64,000 nucleotides of DNA, from positions 25,204-89,203 of the forward strand of contig JACZJN010000197.1 in assembly GCA_014860565.1 (NCBI GenBank), in the 5' to 3' direction. Position 1 is the stretch's first letter; the number at the start of each line of letters is the position of its first letter. This document shows positions 12,362-64,000 of this stretch, piece after piece. The translations under genes were made by a program, and so were the position numbers. Below the pieces are notes generated by a model. That model did no database searches. It had not been told where the DNA came from and saw only the letters and a list, made by a program, of their open reading frames with translations. This DNA is from Bacteroidota bacterium. GTDB taxonomy: Bacteria > Bacteroidota > Ignavibacteria > SZUA-365.

Positions 12362-15300
12362 TTATGGGTGTCTGGAAGCAGCCGAGGCCGAGAATCCGGG
12401 GAAACGAACCTCAATACGCGTCCCTTCCCCTTTTTTGCTCACGATATTTATAAGCGCCCCATGCGCTTCGAGATACAACTTCACCAGCGTCAGTCCCAGA
12501 CCGATTCCTTCGTACATGCGATTATAACCCATGTCCTCCTGCAGATAGGGATCAAAGACTCTTTCGAGAAACGTCTCTGATATTCCGATCCCCGTGTCTG
12601 CGATGAGCACGACCGCTTCACCCTCCTGGCCTTCTGTCAGCGAGAGTGCGACACTCCCTTTGGAAGTGAATTTGACCGCGTTATCGAGCAGGTGTTCGAA
12701 GGCCTCGGCAAGAAAATGCTGATCCCCGCGCAATTCGATCGCACCGGATGTGTTTTCAAAGACAAACTCCAATCCTTTCTCCTCCGCTTGCCGGCGAAAT
12801 TTTTCGCCGCAATCAGCGAGAAGTTTGTCCAGACGAAGCGGGACGCTATTTATCGCAATGTCATGTGCGTGAAAGCGGGAAATATTCAGAATCGAATCGA
12901 CAGTACGGATGAGGCGAAGACTGGCTTCGTTGATGGCGACGACGAACTCCTGCAGCTCCTCACCATTTTCGCGTTCCATCAGCTCCGCCACCAAGGCAAG
13001 GTAGCCAAGGATAATATTCAGCGGCGTCCTGACTTCATGCGAGATGTTCGCGATAAATGACTTTTTGATTGCATCAGCCTGTACCGCCTGTTCGCGAGAG
13101 GCAACCAATTGCTCTTCCGCCAGTTTCCTCCGGATGGCAGCTCCGAGTGTTTCCGCGCTGACCCCCATCGCCTCGAGCTCTGCGCGAAGCCAGCTGCGTC
13201 TGAGACGGCATTCGTCAAAGCGGATGATGCCCCACCAGTGATCGCCGCAGAATACCGGGAGCACCGCGAGGGATCGTACATTCTGTCTCGCAAGGAACAC
13301 CTGTTCCTCGTCGGGAAGGTTGTCGATGATGCCGGCGATCGGATTCCCCGCCGAGAGCTCGGCGGCCCAGCGTCGGAAGGGTTCGTCTTCGAACGATTGG
13401 CCGTCGGGGACGCGATCGATCATGCTGTCGCGCATTTCCGGGCGCACCCACACTGCCCGCTGGCGCATTATACGTGCCCCGTTTTCGTCAGGGACATTCT
13501 CGAATATGACAAGGCGACAGACGTTTGCCGCCGCTCCAAATCGTTCCAGAACTTCCATGATGGAGTCCTTCCAGTCCGCCGTGCGCAGAAATCGCGCCGC
13601 GGCGAAACCAGCTGCACGGATCAGGGCATCGCTCCGTTTGAGCTCCTCTTCCTGCGACTTGCGCGACGTGATATCACGGACGGTCACCAGCGCCGCGGCT
13701 TCACCTTCGTAACGAATCAACGTTGTGGCGAATTCACCCGTACGGATAGTGCCGTCCTTGGTCAGAATCCGTCCTTCATAGACGATTGGGGCCTTGCTGC
13801 CCTCCAGCCGCTGCGCAGCAACGGATTGAATGCGTTGGCGATCATCCGGATGTATGAGTGTCCACGGATTCAATGATGCGAGTTCGTCTCGCGTGTAGCC
13901 GGTAAGCGCCAGCGTCTTCTCGTTGACAAATACGAGGTGGTCATCACGGTAAATGAAAATGGCGTCATGGCTTTTTTCAACGACGGCGCGATAGAGCAGG
14001 TCGCTCTCCTTCCTCGCCTCCTCGGCGAGCATCCGCGCGAGTACTCCGCCCAGGAAGGAGGCGATGGATTCGAGGGTGCGCTGCACGGGTTCATCGAATC
14101 GCTCCGCCGTCAACGACGCGACGTCCAGGGCCGCGATACTCAAGCCTCCGTGCAGCACCGGGATCAGGCCAAACGCGCGTATCCCCTCGGGAGAAAGCAT
14201 CTTTCCGATGCGATCATCAGAGAGCGATTCGGCGTCCAGATACAGAGGGGTTGTTTCCCGTACGAGGCGGTTGTGCACCTGATCGAAAACCGCTTGCGAT
14301 GCGGCCGAGGGGAACGGACCGCAAAGGCCCCGCCAGGCTGCCTGGTGAAAAGTGCCGGTATCGGGGTCCTGCACATAGATCGCGGCCAGGTCGATGTTTT
14401 CAATGCGCAGTACTCCCTGGAGTACGTGATCATAGATTTCTTCCCGCTGCTGGCTATGGGCGAGTTCAATGGCCAGCCGATGCTGAAGCCGCATCAGATA
14501 GGAAACGCGATACTGTTCAGTAATATTCTTCAGCGTCCCCATCACCCCGATGCCGTCTTTCAGCGGAATGCGCCCGACGCTGAGCTGAACCCGCAGCCGT
14601 GAACCGTTACGGTGAAGTGCGGTGAAATCATACCGCCCTCCCACTTCCTCACCTGCCACACGCCTGCGATAATTCGAAAGCACAAGCTCATGGTCCTCGG
14701 GTGCAACCAGGTTGACGATCTCCTTGTCCACCAGCTCTTCTGCTTCATAGCCGAGCATATCCGCAAGGGCGGCGTTCGCGAAGACAATCTTTCCGTCAGA
14801 GAGGACGAAGACTCCATCCTGGCTGTGCTCAACCAGCGCCCGGTAGCGGGTCTCCATCTCTTTCCCCTCACTGTCCTCATCCACGCCGGCGGGCGCCGCG
14901 ACGACCGTCCCCTGCACCAGCCCACTGTCGGTGCCGGTTGAAACACGAGACAGAATGATCAACAGCCTTCCGCCCGGGCCTTTCGGAGCGGCCGCATGTG
15001 CGATGAGCGTTTCAGCGCTCCCGCTGCGCTGCACGCGCGTCAATGCCGCCGTGACCCGGGGTGTATCCAACGGATCGATAAAGGACAGAATCGGCTTGTA
15101 AAGCAGGGCGAAGGGGTCGGTTTGCTCGAACAGGCGGGCGAGCTGCGCCGCAGCCAGACAGATGTTGCCTTCCGCATCGAGAGCGAAGGAGGCTGAAAGC
15201 GGAAGTTCGGGATTGTCGGCATGGAGGGAGATGCGTCCGCTCAGACCGGCAGCCTGCTTTCTCGCAATCGCATATCCGACCACACGGGTGAGCGTCTCGC

Positions 15301-15634
15301 TGGTAATGCTCCCTTTGACAAGATAATCCTGTGCACCGTGTCGAATGGCGGCTCGTGCCAGCCTGTCATCGGCAACAGCCGAGACGATGACGACGGGGAG
15401 TTCGGGGGCCGCGGTCTGCAACGCCAGGAACGTATCAATGCCTTTGGAATCCGGGAGATTGAGATCCAGGAGCGCTACATCGTAATTTCCGCCCTCAAGT
15501 GAGGCGAGCGCTTCATGGAGCGTCCGGAAACTTTCAAAATGAAATTCTGTAGTGTACGAGCGTTCGAGCAGCCGCTGGTTGAGACGCGCTTCCCCTTCAT
15601 GGTCTTCCAGCAGCAGCACCTGGACGATTTCCAT
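12362..15634 (-). CDS. REC-PAS-GAF-PAS-GAF sensor histidine kinase with N-terminal receiver domain
   Basis: N-terminal VQVLLLEDHEGEARLNQ...ALLDLNLPDSKG; PAS domains; ISHEVRTPLNIILGY H-box; DNAVKF, ADTGIGIS, GIGLGLTLVK ATPase motifs. Confidence 0.93.
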   Translation of the reverse strand: MEIVQVLLLEDHEGEARLNQRLLERSYTTEFHFESFRTLHEALASLEGGNYDVALLDLNLPDSKGIDTFLALQTAAPELPVVIVSAVADDRLARAAIRHGAQDYLVKGSITSETLTRVVGYAIARKQAAGLSGRISLHADNPELPLSASFALDAEGNICLAAAQLARLFEQTDPFALLYKPILSFIDPLDTPRVTAALTRVQRSGSAETLIAHAAAPKGPGGRLLIILSRVSTGTDSGLVQGTVVAAPAGVDEDSEGKEMETRYRALVEHSQDGVFVLSDGKIVFANAALADMLGYEAEELVDKEIVNLVAPEDHELVLSNYRRRVAGEEVGGRYDFTALHRNGSRLRVQLSVGRIPLKDGIGVMGTLKNITEQYRVSYLMRLQHRLAIELAHSQQREEIYDHVLQGVLRIENIDLAAIYVQDPDTGTFHQAAWRGLCGPFPSAASQAVFDQVHNRLVRETTPLYLDAESLSDDRIGKMLSPEGIRAFGLIPVLHGGLSIAALDVASLTAERFDEPVQRTLESIASFLGGVLARMLAEEARKESDLLYRAVVEKSHDAIFIYRDDHLVFVNEKTLALTGYTRDELASLNPWTLIHPDDRQRIQSVAAQRLEGSKAPIVYEGRILTKDGTIRTGEFATTLIRYEGEAAALVTVRDITSRKSQEEELKRSDALIRAAGFAAARFLRTADWKDSIMEVLERFGAAANVCRLVIFENVPDENGARIMRQRAVWVRPEMRDSMIDRVPDGQSFEDEPFRRWAAELSAGNPIAGIIDNLPDEEQVFLARQNVRSLAVLPVFCGDHWWGIIRFDECRLRRSWLRAELEAMGVSAETLGAAIRRKLAEEQLVASREQAVQADAIKKSFIANISHEVRTPLNIILGYLALVAELMERENGEELQEFVVAINEASLRLIRTVDSILNISRFHAHDIAINSVPLRLDKLLADCGEKFRRQAEEKGLEFVFENTSGAIELRGDQHFLAEAFEHLLDNAVKFTSKGSVALSLTEGQEGEAVVLIADTGIGISETFLERVFDPYLQEDMGYNRMYEGIGLGLTLVKLYLEAHGALINIVSKKGEGTRIEVRFPGFSASAASRHP

Positions 15635-15764
15635 TGATACTCCTGTCAATCTGGATCTCGAAACGTTAATCCTCGCGTCCGTGCAGGTGATCTTTGGGGA
15701 GGATCATCCGATGCGCGATATAGCTATAATACTGCAATTCACAGCTGTTCACAAGATACGCGAC

Positions 15765-16916
15765 TCAGCCGCCCTGGCACACATATTTCCGAGGCACGCG
15801 CGTGTTCAGCATGGTCAGAATCTCGTATGGAATAGTGTCGCAGTACGAGGCCAATTCTTCCACCGAGATGCGCTCTTCGCCCTGCCCCCCGATCAGAACG
15901 ACTTCATCTCCGGTGTACGCGGAATCCTGACCAATGTCGACCATGCACTGATCCATCGAGATGCGCCCGACGATGGGGTACCGACGTCCATTAATCAGGA
16001 CCTCGGCGTGATTGGACAGGCTGCGTGCGTAGCCGTCGCCGTATCCCACCGGCAGCGTGACGATGCGTGTATTCTTCTCCGCCGTCCACGTGTGATCATA
16101 GCCGATCGACGCGCCTGCGAGTACGACCTTGAAGTACACGACGCGGGTCTTCATGCTCAGCACGGGCCGGATCTCCACCGACCGATCCACCGCGGGTCCG
16201 GGGTACACTCCGTAGAGTATGATTCCAGGACGCACCATATCAAGCGTCGCTTCCGGATGCTGCAGCACCGCGGCAGAGTTTGCAATGTGCCTGATCGGCA
16301 TCGGAAGTCCGTTGCCCGGGAAATACTCCAGCACGTCGAGGAAACGCGCGAGCTGGAGCCTGGTGAAGCTTTTATCGGGATCGTGCGACGACGCGAAATG
16401 AGAGAATACGCCGCGGAGGTCGCAATGCCGCGCCTCCTGCATCGCGTCGAACAATTGTGCCGCGTTTTCATGACGGATGCCGATGCGTCCCATACCCGTA
16501 TCGATTTTCAGCTGAACCTGTGCACGTATCCCCATGGCCGCGGCGGTTTCGTCGATCTGTCTGAGTTTGTACACGCTGGAGGCAGTGATCTGCAGGTCGT
16601 ATTCGAGGAAGTGCGCGATCTGGTTGCCGATGATTCCACCCAGCACCAGCACCGGTGCGGTGATGCCGGCGCGGCGGAGCATGATCCCTTCTTCGAGAAA
16701 GGCCACGCCGAGTTCATCCACCCCGAAGCGGAGCAGTTCCTGTGCCGTGCGGACGAGGCCATGTCCGTACGCATTCGCCTTGACCGAGGCCATGATCCGT
16801 GTTTTCCCGACGCGTTCCCGCAGGCGCGCAACATTGTCGCGCAGTGCATCAAGATCGACCTCGATCACCGTCGGCCGCATGGCGATGGACCCATCGTCGA
16901 ATACGCTTTGAATCAT
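15765..16916 (-). CDS. alr: Alanine racemase
   Basis: PLP motif MASVKANAYGHGLV; RPGIILYGVYP; SMDQCMVDIG; NTRVPRKYV C-terminus. Confidence 0.95.
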   Translation of the reverse strand: MIQSVFDDGSIAMRPTVIEVDLDALRDNVARLRERVGKTRIMASVKANAYGHGLVRTAQELLRFGVDELGVAFLEEGIMLRRAGITAPVLVLGGIIGNQIAHFLEYDLQITASSVYKLRQIDETAAAMGIRAQVQLKIDTGMGRIGIRHENAAQLFDAMQEARHCDLRGVFSHFASSHDPDKSFTRLQLARFLDVLEYFPGNGLPMPIRHIANSAAVLQHPEATLDMVRPGIILYGVYPGPAVDRSVEIRPVLSMKTRVVYFKVVLAGASIGYDHTWTAEKNTRIVTLPVGYGDGYARSLSNHAEVLINGRRYPIVGRISMDQCMVDIGQDSAYTGDEVVLIGGQGEERISVEELASYCDTIPYEILTMLNTRVPRKYVCQGG

Positions 16917-46914: not shown

Positions 46915-46932
46915 TTCGGATCCTGCGTGCAT

Positions 46933-47149
46933 GGGCACGCCAGGGGCGCAGCATGCTGCGCCCCTACAAATGCCTTCCTATGTTCTGGGCACGCCAAGCG
47001 GGGAGCATGCTGCGCCCCTACAAATGCCTTCCTATGTTCTGGGCACGCCAAGCGGGGAGCATGCTGCGCCCCTACAAATGCCTTCCTATGTTCTGGGCAC
47101 GCCAAGGGGCGCGGCGTGCTGCGCCCCTACAAATGCCTTCCTATGTTCA
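46933..47149. repeat. Four-copy 54/55-bp tandem repeat containing a GC-rich palindrome
   Basis: Units at 46933-46986, 46987-47040, 47041-47094, 47095-47149; consensus GGGCACGCCAAGCGGGGAGCATGCTGCGCCCCTACAAATGCCTTCCTATGTTCT; unit 1 holds GGGGCGCAGCATGCTGCGCCCC. Confidence 0.95.
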
Positions 47150-61071: not shown

Positions 61072-62178
61072 ATGAAATTCCGCACCATCACGCTGATCGC
61101 ACTGTTTCTCTTCACCGGACTTTCCCTGCATGCACAGGATGCCCGGTGGTACGACTCCGTGGAAATGCAGGGCTTTCTCTCCACGTCGTTCACCTATAAC
61201 CTCAACACGCCGGCGAGCGGAGAAAACGGTTTCCGTATTTTCGACCGTCATCACAACAGCTTCAACCTCGACGTGTTTCAGCTCGTACTGAAGCGCGACG
61301 CGGAGAAAGCGGGCGACGCCGGATTCCGCTTCGACGGCATTTTCGGCCAGCTGCCGATGTACACTGCGTCGTCGGGACTCTTCGGCGGACAGAACATCGA
61401 CGTGCTGCAGGCCTATGCCACCTACATCATCCCGATCGGCGACGGACTGACGCTCGACGGTGGAAAGTTCCTCACCCATATGGGCTATGAGTTGATCGAA
61501 GGCCGCGACGGCTGGAACGACAACATCAGCCGCTCGTTCTGTTTCGGTTACGCCATTCCCTTCGCGCACACCGGTCTCCGCGCGCGTTACGGCTTCGGCG
61601 AACGCGTTTCGGCGATGGTCATGCTCGCGAACGGCTGGGACAACGCGGTCGAAAACAACAGCAATAAAACCGTGGGCGCGCAGCTGGCCTTTGTCCCTGT
61701 CGACGGACTCAACCTCGTGGCGAACGCGATCTACGGTGCCGAAGGCAGCGATGACAACAGCAACAACACGTCGGTCATCGACATCGTCGCCAGCTGGTCG
61801 GCCAGCGATCTGATCACCATCGGTGCGAACGTCGACCTCGGTTCCGCGCAGGCCGCTGCCGCGGAAGGCGCGGACGCAGCATGGACCGGTTTCGCCGGCT
61901 ATGTCCGCCTCAACTTCAGCGACGCATTCTCGCTGGCCCTTCGCGGCGAGCAGTTCGACGATGCCGACGGTGTGCGCACCGGTGGCGTGCAGAAACTCAC
62001 GGAGTTCACCATCACCCCGGAATACCGGCCGACCGACAACCTGGTCTTCCGTGCCGAGTTCCGCATGGACACTTCCGACAAGGAAGTGTTCGAGGACGGC
62101 GACTCGTTTGAAAATCCTTCCCTCCCAAACAGCGATGCGCAGTCCACGATCGGACTGAACATGCTCGTTTTGTTCTAA
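61072..62178 (+). CDS. Outer-membrane beta-barrel porin (OmpL/BBP2-like)
   Basis: Signal peptide, FLSTSFTYNLNTP, FNLDVFQLVLKRDAEKAGDAGFRFDGIFGQ, alternating beta pattern to a C-terminal LNMLVLF; directly downstream of amt. Confidence 0.85.
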   Translation: MKFRTITLIALFLFTGLSLHAQDARWYDSVEMQGFLSTSFTYNLNTPASGENGFRIFDRHHNSFNLDVFQLVLKRDAEKAGDAGFRFDGIFGQLPMYTASSGLFGGQNIDVLQAYATYIIPIGDGLTLDGGKFLTHMGYELIEGRDGWNDNISRSFCFGYAIPFAHTGLRARYGFGERVSAMVMLANGWDNAVENNSNKTVGAQLAFVPVDGLNLVANAIYGAEGSDDNSNNTSVIDIVASWSASDLITIGANVDLGSAQAAAAEGADAAWTGFAGYVRLNFSDAFSLALRGEQFDDADGVRTGGVQKLTEFTITPEYRPTDNLVFRAEFRMDTSDKEVFEDGDSFENPSLPNSDAQSTIGLNMLVLF

Positions 62179-62198
62179 TCCCTCCTTCGAGCGCGAAC

Positions 62199-62232
62199 GG
62201 CGGCGGTTCCTACCTCAGGAACCGCCGTTTTT
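62199..62232 (+). terminator. Intrinsic terminator
   Basis: CGGCGGTTCC-TACCTCA-GGAACCGCCGTTTTTG after the porin. Confidence 0.85.
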
Positions 62233-62536
62233 GTTTCAGGCATTAAAGCGGATAGGGATCCCATTTCTTACAAAAAATTAATGTAAAAAATGAAGATAAT
62301 TTTGGCCATTCAGGGTGAACTCCCACGATAGAGTGGTATGGAGGCTCCGTGGCCGCGAACACGGCCGCCTCGGCGGAAAATCGGCCAGTACCGTACAATG
62401 GACACCGTCACCAGACGGTCTCCGAGAATGTGGGGCACCTGCCAGGTCGGACGAGCTGGTCAACCCGCGCCCGCATCCCGGGCCCGGGGGATTGCTCTTT
62501 GCGTCTCTTTTTCCTTCATTTATCATGGAGTTACCC

Positions 62537-62719
62537 ATGAAGCAACACGACACCGCCTCAATGGGGCGGATCCCGGCACGGTTCTTGACACACACACACA
62601 CACACACAGCACATGTGATGAGCCGGGCAAAACCCGTCGACCACGGGATCCCCGACGATCCCGTCACTGTCACTTCCCGCTTCGTTTTCTCCCGTTCCTT
62701 CTGCTCCTTCTCTTCATGA
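62537..62719 (+). CDS. Short ORF with good SD that runs through the (CA)10 tract; probable out-of-frame leader of the next gene
   Basis: GGAG-TTACCC-ATGAAG at 62527-62542; MKQHDTASMGRIPARFLTHTHTHTAHVMS...SFCSFSS stop at 62719. Confidence 0.5.
   Translation: MKQHDTASMGRIPARFLTHTHTHTAHVMSRAKPVDHGIPDDPVTVTSRFVFSRSFCSFSS
62589..62608. repeat. (CA)10 dinucleotide microsatellite
   Basis: Ten uninterrupted CA units between the SD/ATG at 62537 and the downstream signal-peptide frame. Confidence 0.97.
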
Positions 62720-64000
62720 TAAGCGGTGTGTGGAATATCGCGCTGGGGCAAACCGAATGGAAGGACCGCTCTCCATGCCTCGCGCCCAATGACCAGCTCA
62801 ATCCGGCGGTTGCCCTGCCCACGCAGACCGACTTCACCGTCAGCGTCTGGGAAGACGAACGTGATTTCGGTGATTCGGGCTCGGATATCTACATTCAGCG
62901 CATCGATAACATCACCGGTGTTTCCACCTGGATCGGGGACAAGACGGGGTATTACTATTATGGAAACATCAACGTCGTGGAGGACCGCTTCGACGGCATC
63001 CCCGTGTGCACCGCCCCGGAGGACCAGCGCAATCCCCGCGCGGCCTATGACGGCATGGGCGGTGTGGTGGTGGTCTGGGAGGACTATCGGAGCGGAATCT
63101 GCGATGTGTACGCGCAGCGCATCGATCTTGCCACGGGCCGCCCCGATCCGGCCTGGCCTGTTGATGGCATCCCCGTCTGCCAGACCGGCGCGCGCAGCGA
63201 ACGCCCGCGAGTGGTCGGAACGAGCGACGGCGTGTTCATCACCTGGATCGACTATCGCAACGACCCGGGCACGCCGCCACGCGACCGGGACATTTTCCTG
63301 CAGTACATCCAGAGCGCCACGGCCAGCTGGCCGCCGCCGCCGACCGCCTGGGTGCAGAACGGCATCCAGGTCACCACGAACACGCGGCCCGACCAGATCA
63401 ATCCCGAGTTGGACGCGGACAATATTTTCGCACTCGACCTGCTCGGCAACATGACGCAGGGAGTGGTTGTCACCTACCAGGATGACCGCTTTCGAGGGCT
63501 GTCTTCCGGACAGCCGGTGTGGACGGTGTTCGCCAATCGCATCGACGCGAACGGCGCGCAGATGTACACGATGGGCATGCCGCCATGGACGGCCGACGTG
63601 CCCGCGGCGCCGTCGTACGAGCACCAGGAGTATCCGCGCATCGTGACCACCGGCAAGCAGCCGAACGTGACCAACCAATCGGCGGTGATCGTCTGGCAGG
63701 ACATGATCGAGAATCCCGTCCTGGGCTATACCGACATCTTCGCCCAGCGCCTCGACGCCAGCGGACTCGCGCTGTTCGGCGGCGCGACCGGACTTCCGGT
63801 CTGCCAGGTGCCGCTCGCGCAGATGCTCCCGCAGCCCGTGCTCTGGGAATCGGGCGATCCGCTGCTGGGGACCTACGTGCCGTACGTGACCGTGGGTTGG
63901 ATCGATTACCGGAACGCGACCCTCAACGGAACGGATATTTACGGCGGACTGATCATGGCCAACGCGCCGGGCGGGATGGTCAATCCGCAGGGAGGGATGG
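62716..64000 (+). CDS. Exported W-x-D-x-R repeat (propeller-like) protein, 3'-truncated by window; coding frame opens upstream of this ATG
   Basis: Frame open to window end: ...GVWNIALGQTEWKDRSPCLAPNDQLNPAV...VSVWEDERDFGDSGSDIYIQRID...VVVVWEDYRSGICDVYAQRID...VFITWIDYRNDPG...VVVTYQDDRFRG...VIVWQDMIENPVLGYTDIFAQRLD. Homologous repeats to 38075..40741. Absent from the ORF track because it has no stop in the window. Confidence 0.85.
   Translation, partial: MISGVWNIALGQTEWKDRSPCLAPNDQLNPAVALPTQTDFTVSVWEDERDFGDSGSDIYIQRIDNITGVSTWIGDKTGYYYYGNINVVEDRFDGIPVCTAPEDQRNPRAAYDGMGGVVVVWEDYRSGICDVYAQRIDLATGRPDPAWPVDGIPVCQTGARSERPRVVGTSDGVFITWIDYRNDPGTPPRDRDIFLQYIQSATASWPPPPTAWVQNGIQVTTNTRPDQINPELDADNIFALDLLGNMTQGVVVTYQDDRFRGLSSGQPVWTVFANRIDANGAQMYTMGMPPWTADVPAAPSYEHQEYPRIVTTGKQPNVTNQSAVIVWQDMIENPVLGYTDIFAQRLDASGLALFGGATGLPVCQVPLAQMLPQPVLWESGDPLLGTYVPYVTVGWIDYRNATLNGTDIYGGLIMANAPGGMVNPQGGM

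Follow-up and report, generated by a model that had tools for sequence, protein, structure and literature searches.

A (CA)10 tract as a candidate translational phase-variation switch ahead of a T9SS cargo gene in an Ignavibacteria/Bacteroidota-related lineage

The gene for an exported repeat protein at the end of a 64,000-nt stretch of DNA (hereafter the window) carries ten CA dinucleotides between its best start codon and its putative signal peptide. Judging from this sequence and from homologous genes, the tract very probably serves as a translational contingency switch, by which T9SS cargo of an Ignavibacteria/Bacteroidota-related lineage would undergo slipped-strand phase variation. On a wider scale, T9SS-exported proteins likely form a multi-locus phasome in an uncultured, probably free-living order of this kind, where the switch stays at a conserved position and the repeat (units of 1, 2, 4, 5, 8, and 13 nt) has been replaced repeatedly, in two unrelated protein families and perhaps with further promoter-type poly-G switches. 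The slipped-strand mechanism is already known; the lineage and the gene families appear to be new, and a search of open-access text found no literature in which SSR phase variation is linked to T9SS cargo or to Ignavibacteria, which NCBI taxonomy places within Ignavibacteriota in the Bacteroidota/Chlorobiota group.

The source genome (G000) is a 223-contig MAG of 4.75 Mb, and the count of ten CA units is that of the assembly. Since the window ends with contig C56, the last part of the gene is absent from it. Each gene in the comparison was scored as ON when the Shine–Dalgarno-supported ATG (SD-ATG) is in frame with the signal-peptide core and as OFF when it is not, and signal peptides in the window gene and its homologues were judged by eye. 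The parts of the leader are collected in Table 1.

Table 1. Features of the CA-tract gene and its leader, in window coordinates
Feature	Position	Strand	Basis
Intrinsic terminator of the upstream porin-like gene (61072-62178)	62199..62229	+	Terminator scan, inverted repeat I3
Shine–Dalgarno GGAG, N6 before ATG 62537	62527..62530	+	Read in the sequence
OFF reading frame MKQHDTASMGRIPARFLTHTHTHTAHV..., 60 codons then stop	62537..62719	+	Translation, frame scoring
(CA)10 tract (putative slippage tract), 20 bp, 52 nt past ATG 62537	62589..62608	+	Sequence; repeat search
Signal-peptide-like segment FPLRFLPFLLLLLFMISGVWNIALGQ	62674..62751	+	Translation by eye; frame offset +2 from ATG 62537
Stop codon TGA closing the OFF frame	62717-62719	+	Sequence
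Exported repeat protein, beta-propeller-like, open to contig end	62752..63999	+	Homology; AlphaFold; Foldseek

A preliminary description of this DNA had proposed that the SD-ATG is read through the repeat to an early stop, and that the long downstream gene lies in another frame with no start codon between the tract and the signal core; the coordinates and the translation bear out both statements. The signal core lies 77 nt beyond the tract at an offset of +2 relative to ATG 62537, and FPLRFLPFLLLLLFMISGVWNIALGQ aligns with the signal regions of the homologues ahead of a common TEWKDR start. Between the tract and the hydrophobic core, a sequence scan of the downstream frame found no ATG, GTG, or TTG, and the nearest start-like codon in that frame, ATG 62716, is inside the core itself. 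By eye, the homologues show a hydrophobic core with an AQ-type end; in the window gene, the signal-peptide-like segment is joined to a start only in the ON frame. The earlier calculation that the loss of one CA unit or the gain of two would fuse the start to the signal peptide is also right, i.e., 9 or 12 units bring ATG 62537 into the signal-peptide frame. Upstream in-frame ATGs are present at 62338, 62398, and 62428. None of them has a Shine–Dalgarno-like sequence ahead of it, and a start at any of the three would place about 86–116 residues before the hydrophobic core; ATG 62398 is the alternative start that had been suggested.

The tract unit is not divisible by three, the tract sits between start codon and coding body, and across the 4.75-Mb assembly it is the sole site with at least seven CA units. 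The terminator separates the gene from its porin-like neighbor, and an Rfam search of the window leader together with the homologue leaders gave nothing credible, hence no known riboswitch. Further upstream, at 62285-62321, the window contains AAAAAATGAAnATAATTTTGGCCA followed by GGTGAACT; this stretch also occurs at intergenic sites in genome G002 and partly on G000:C134, and is possibly a promoter element of the lineage.

Full-length homologues of the window protein comprise about 1100–1220 residues, with a best identity of 65–66%, and no Pfam family was matched by the window protein. The AlphaFold model of the window part is all-beta (mean pLDDT 80), and its best Foldseek matches are beta-propeller enzymes (neuraminidases, GH43 hydrolases) at modest TM-scores of about 0.3–0.5, which supports a predicted propeller-like fold and not an enzyme assignment. 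Contig C126 opens with a 696-codon piece (G000:C126:2-2089) that resumes the homology: the window ends near profile position 408 and the piece begins at 429 in the same sense, so that it is probably the missing C-terminal continuation, the join being drawn from homology. The C-terminal T9SS type A sorting domain (TIGR04183) scored above cut-off in four of five full-length homologues tested (L049, L053, L055, and L056), and the probable continuation reached 20.8 against a cut-off of 23. The translocon is represented in G000 by SprA (TIGR04189), encoded on G000:C10 with an E-value of 1e-290. Contig C126 also carries a truncated paralogue of the window gene (14804-15772, about 335 residues matched), after which comes the gene of a large unrelated exported protein.

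The comparison of homologues covered the DNA upstream of all 14 members of this first family whose 5' end is present, and seven of them have a tandem repeat between the start codon and the signal-peptide core. Besides (CA)10 in G000, these are (TTCGTCGA)n and (ACAGT)n in the single-contig genome G007, (TC)8 and (CGAACGCT)n in G010 (both at contig ends, with the start codon missing), C10 in G006, and C9 in G013. The units, with poly-C occurring twice, are mutually unrelated. As in the window, an SD-ATG precedes the tract in homologues in G007, G006, G013, G010, and G002. The five tract bearers of this family that could be scored for frame are all OFF, and some contain additional lesions that could reflect decay or assembly error, namely a TAG in one G007 copy and frame breaks inside the G006 and G013 genes. 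The other seven members, three in G008, two in G003, one in G009, and the truncated paralogue in G000, are free of tracts; half of the family does not need one, which counts against the switch reading. The breaks of the G010 contigs at their repeats were discarded as evidence for length heterogeneity, because an 87-nt pure repeat ends the contig and an assembly with k=87 breaks there anyway. A conserved leader (CCGACCTCACGGACCTG...CAGGTGCCGCAAGGCCGGC) was seen ahead of tract-free genes of the family in several species (G000:C126:15884-16039, three sites in G003, and three in G008); it was not found ahead of tract-bearing members of the family and has no Rfam match. In a distant homologue from a Saganbacteria MAG (L071, 3803-3835), (AAATGTC)4.7 extends over the start codon in frame with the signal peptide.

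A second, unrelated family was found by scanning for long poly-C/G tracts, with the seeds in G000 (contig C134) and G007, where G11 lies between the start and the signal core of an exported protein. Its proteins show weak matches to an M6 metalloprotease model and possess T9SS sorting domains; a PDB sequence search with one of them gave no match. A tract occupies the corresponding position in seven of the eight members (G11, (AAGC)6, (AAGC)8.5, G11, G12, C10, and a 13-mer repeated 4.3 times), the sole tract-free copy being that of G001. Within the 16 genomes, (AAGC)n of at least four units occurs at exactly two sites, on G000:C164 and G010:C295, both at the start of a gene of this family; the two genes are homologous, belong to different genera, and are OFF with 6 units and ON with 8.5. 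Repeat comparison among relatives had been put forward as a check on the candidate switch, and this pair in the sister family favors it. The same holds for the unrelated slippery repeats found in the homologous slot in other genera, with the SD-ATG out of frame, which lend strong support to the candidate as originally described.

Over both families, all eight scored members without a tract are in frame, and among the 12 scored tract bearers, 10 are OFF and two are ON, the latter (G000:C134 and G010:C295) both in the second family. This proportion of ON genes shows no clear departure from the one third expected with random frames, and is compatible with other mechanisms of initiation or frameshifting. 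Five of the 10 OFF genes lack any ATG, GTG, or TTG in the signal-peptide frame from the preceding stop to the core, and thus no standard start yields the exported protein as sequenced. The other five have starts that lack a clear Shine–Dalgarno sequence or lie far upstream. Counting against the switch, an ATG is present within every repeat unit of one G002 copy, and the gene in G006 and one G007 copy contain GTG/TTG codons without Shine–Dalgarno, which are candidate alternative starts.

The recurrence of tracts in this slot is far above chance. At fixed thresholds, tandem repeats occur once per ~64 kb in G000 (637 kb searched) and once per ~36 kb in G007 (400 kb), so that for a slot of ~170 nt between start and core a chance tract is expected in about 0.3–0.5% of genes. 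With the seed members left out, the binomial P is about 1e-11 to 1e-13 per family, for members that are partly non-independent as paralogues. Because the tracts differ in sequence, inheritance of one tract is no explanation, the AAGC pair excepted, and across both families the length of the unit is never divisible by three. No claim was made for most of the remaining long poly-C/G tracts of these genomes, which lie between genes, in the middle of genes, or at the ends of contigs, and a generic search for purine/pyrimidine alternation was too unspecific to be of use. Many heptanucleotide arrays (CGTGAAT, GTGAAGA, AGAGCGG, and others), apparently mostly intergenic, were seen in the G007 samples L125, L126, L135, L136, L137, and L053; they lie mostly elsewhere and were entered as background.

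Each rival explanation is contradicted by part of this evidence. The preliminary description had named a sequencing or assembly indel as an alternative, in which case the tract would really contain 9 units and the reading frame would be intact, without any switching. Repeat tracts are the usual spot for such errors, a single unit suffices, and the gene stands at a contig end of a 223-contig MAG; nevertheless, the 20-bp CA repeat is unique in the genome and stays in place even if its count is wrong, and an indel fails to account for unrelated units at homologous positions in independent assemblies, including the single contig of G007. We regard an indel as improbable. Smaller still is the probability that expression is independent of slippage in the DNA, with the SD-ATG frame as a leader peptide and the protein produced by translational frameshifting, transcriptional slippage, or an unrecognized start. 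This would suit the 10 of 12 tract bearers that are out of frame as sequenced, and G/C homopolymers of 9–12 nt can provoke polymerase slippage. However, efficient slippage in transcription or translation would be unexpected on units of 4, 5, 8, and 13 nt, the SD-ATG is directly in frame in the tract-free members and also in two tract bearers, and the signal frame of five OFF genes lacks any ATG, GTG, or TTG after the preceding stop.

A neutral microsatellite drifting in a dead gene is very improbable. The truncated tract-free paralogue on C126 (335-residue match), the TAG in the G007 copy, and the extra frame breaks in G006 and G013 could point to decay in the family, but the window ORF is unbroken to the contig end with 65% identity to a complete homologue, and both families have their tracts in one and the same short slot, in units whose length is never divisible by three. 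Least probable of all, and barely credible, is a role of the tract as promoter spacer or upstream element, i.e., transcriptional phase variation. A TTGACA hexamer (62585-62590) continues into the CA repeat, and other poly-G tracts of G000 lie beside or between promoter-like hexamers; yet there is no −10 partner at 16–18 nt from this TTGACA, and a transcript begun past the tract would have no in-frame start ahead of the signal core. As a scan for sigma-70-type promoters over 62150-62760 found none, and hence no −35/−10 pair around the tract, the promoter-spacer reading of the CA tract was dropped.

In the translational switch preferred here, ribosomes would initiate at ATG 62537 and translate across the CA tract, and replication slippage that gains or loses CA units would change the frame of everything downstream. 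Ten units would lead to a stop after 60 codons (OFF), and 9 or 12 units to the signal peptide followed by the full beta-propeller-like protein of roughly 1100 residues (ON), whose export would proceed through Sec and then the T9SS. The region just ahead of the signal peptide may act as a sequence-tolerant spacer; since such a spacer would accept many amino-acid sequences, lineages could swap the repeat often and still keep the switch. We infer that slippage takes place in living cells and that the ON protein gets to the cell surface, where the benefit would be bet-hedging against phage, grazers, or neighbors.

The layout of the CA-tract gene appears closest, by analogy, to Neisseria opa and to the tetranucleotide contingency genes of Haemophilus influenzae. 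In opa, (CTCTT)n lies in the signal-peptide coding region, so both cases place out-of-phase repeats after the start, in or before the signal peptide, and would switch the frame of a surface protein. Unlike opa, where a pathogen uses one unit per gene family for an outer-membrane adhesin, the unit here varies from gene to gene, and the product is a large T9SS cargo of an uncultured environmental lineage. The Haemophilus genes hgp, with (CCAA)n, and lic, with (CAAT)n, have their tetranucleotide tracts near the 5' end, to which the (AAGC)n of the metalloprotease family is directly comparable, although the proteins and the secretion route are unrelated. The phasomes of Campylobacter and Neisseria have been catalogued in pathogens and commensals (PMC6321876, PMC5953494) and likewise include multiple surface genes with SSRs in each genome, some of the repeats being homopolymeric G/C; by comparison, the present genomes come from uncultured organisms, contain few SSRs of such length, and combine units of different sizes. 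Surface functions are also phase-variable in Bacteroides, on the Bacteroidota side of the tree, but by way of invertible promoters, i.e., DNA inversion by recombinases (reviewed in PMC11868660), which differs from slippage, and no evidence of inversion was found at this locus. Phase variants as a population defense against phage are discussed in PMC6625227, and such defense is one possible benefit for a free-living bacterium.

SSR phase variation has so far come mainly from pathogens and commensals, where it is ascribed to host immunity. Its occurrence in an uncultured environmental lineage, on secreted proteins of beta-propeller and protease-like type, would point to other selective forces such as phage, predators, or competitors. 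In practical terms, gene callers will mis-start or split tract-bearing genes in MAGs. Moreover, unrelated repeats in one slot provide a natural series for asking how contingency tracts arise and get replaced.

Other repeat loci were noted in G000 and its relatives. At L199 (G000:C101, 1485-1494), G10 occupies the spacer of a promoter-like pair, TTGACA-atatcgga-G10-TATTTT, some 250 nt before the ORF of an exported protein (MIRFILITMLLLNSSLLHAQ), and is a candidate for transcriptional phase variation. G12 at L195 (G000:C41, 1692-1703) and G13 at L194 (G000:C26, 1605-1617, minus strand) are situated 1 and 7 nt upstream of TTGACA and TTGACT, respectively; the former precedes a membrane protein, which is followed by one with a T9SS domain, and the latter precedes a lipoprotein-like gene. 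In a relative of the same order, (GT)12 lies between sugar-nucleotide/glycosyltransferase genes (L213, G012:C106, 1400-1423). Within the window itself, a 54-nt tandem repeat in four copies, 94% identical, follows the ORF of a secreted protein at 46932-47148.
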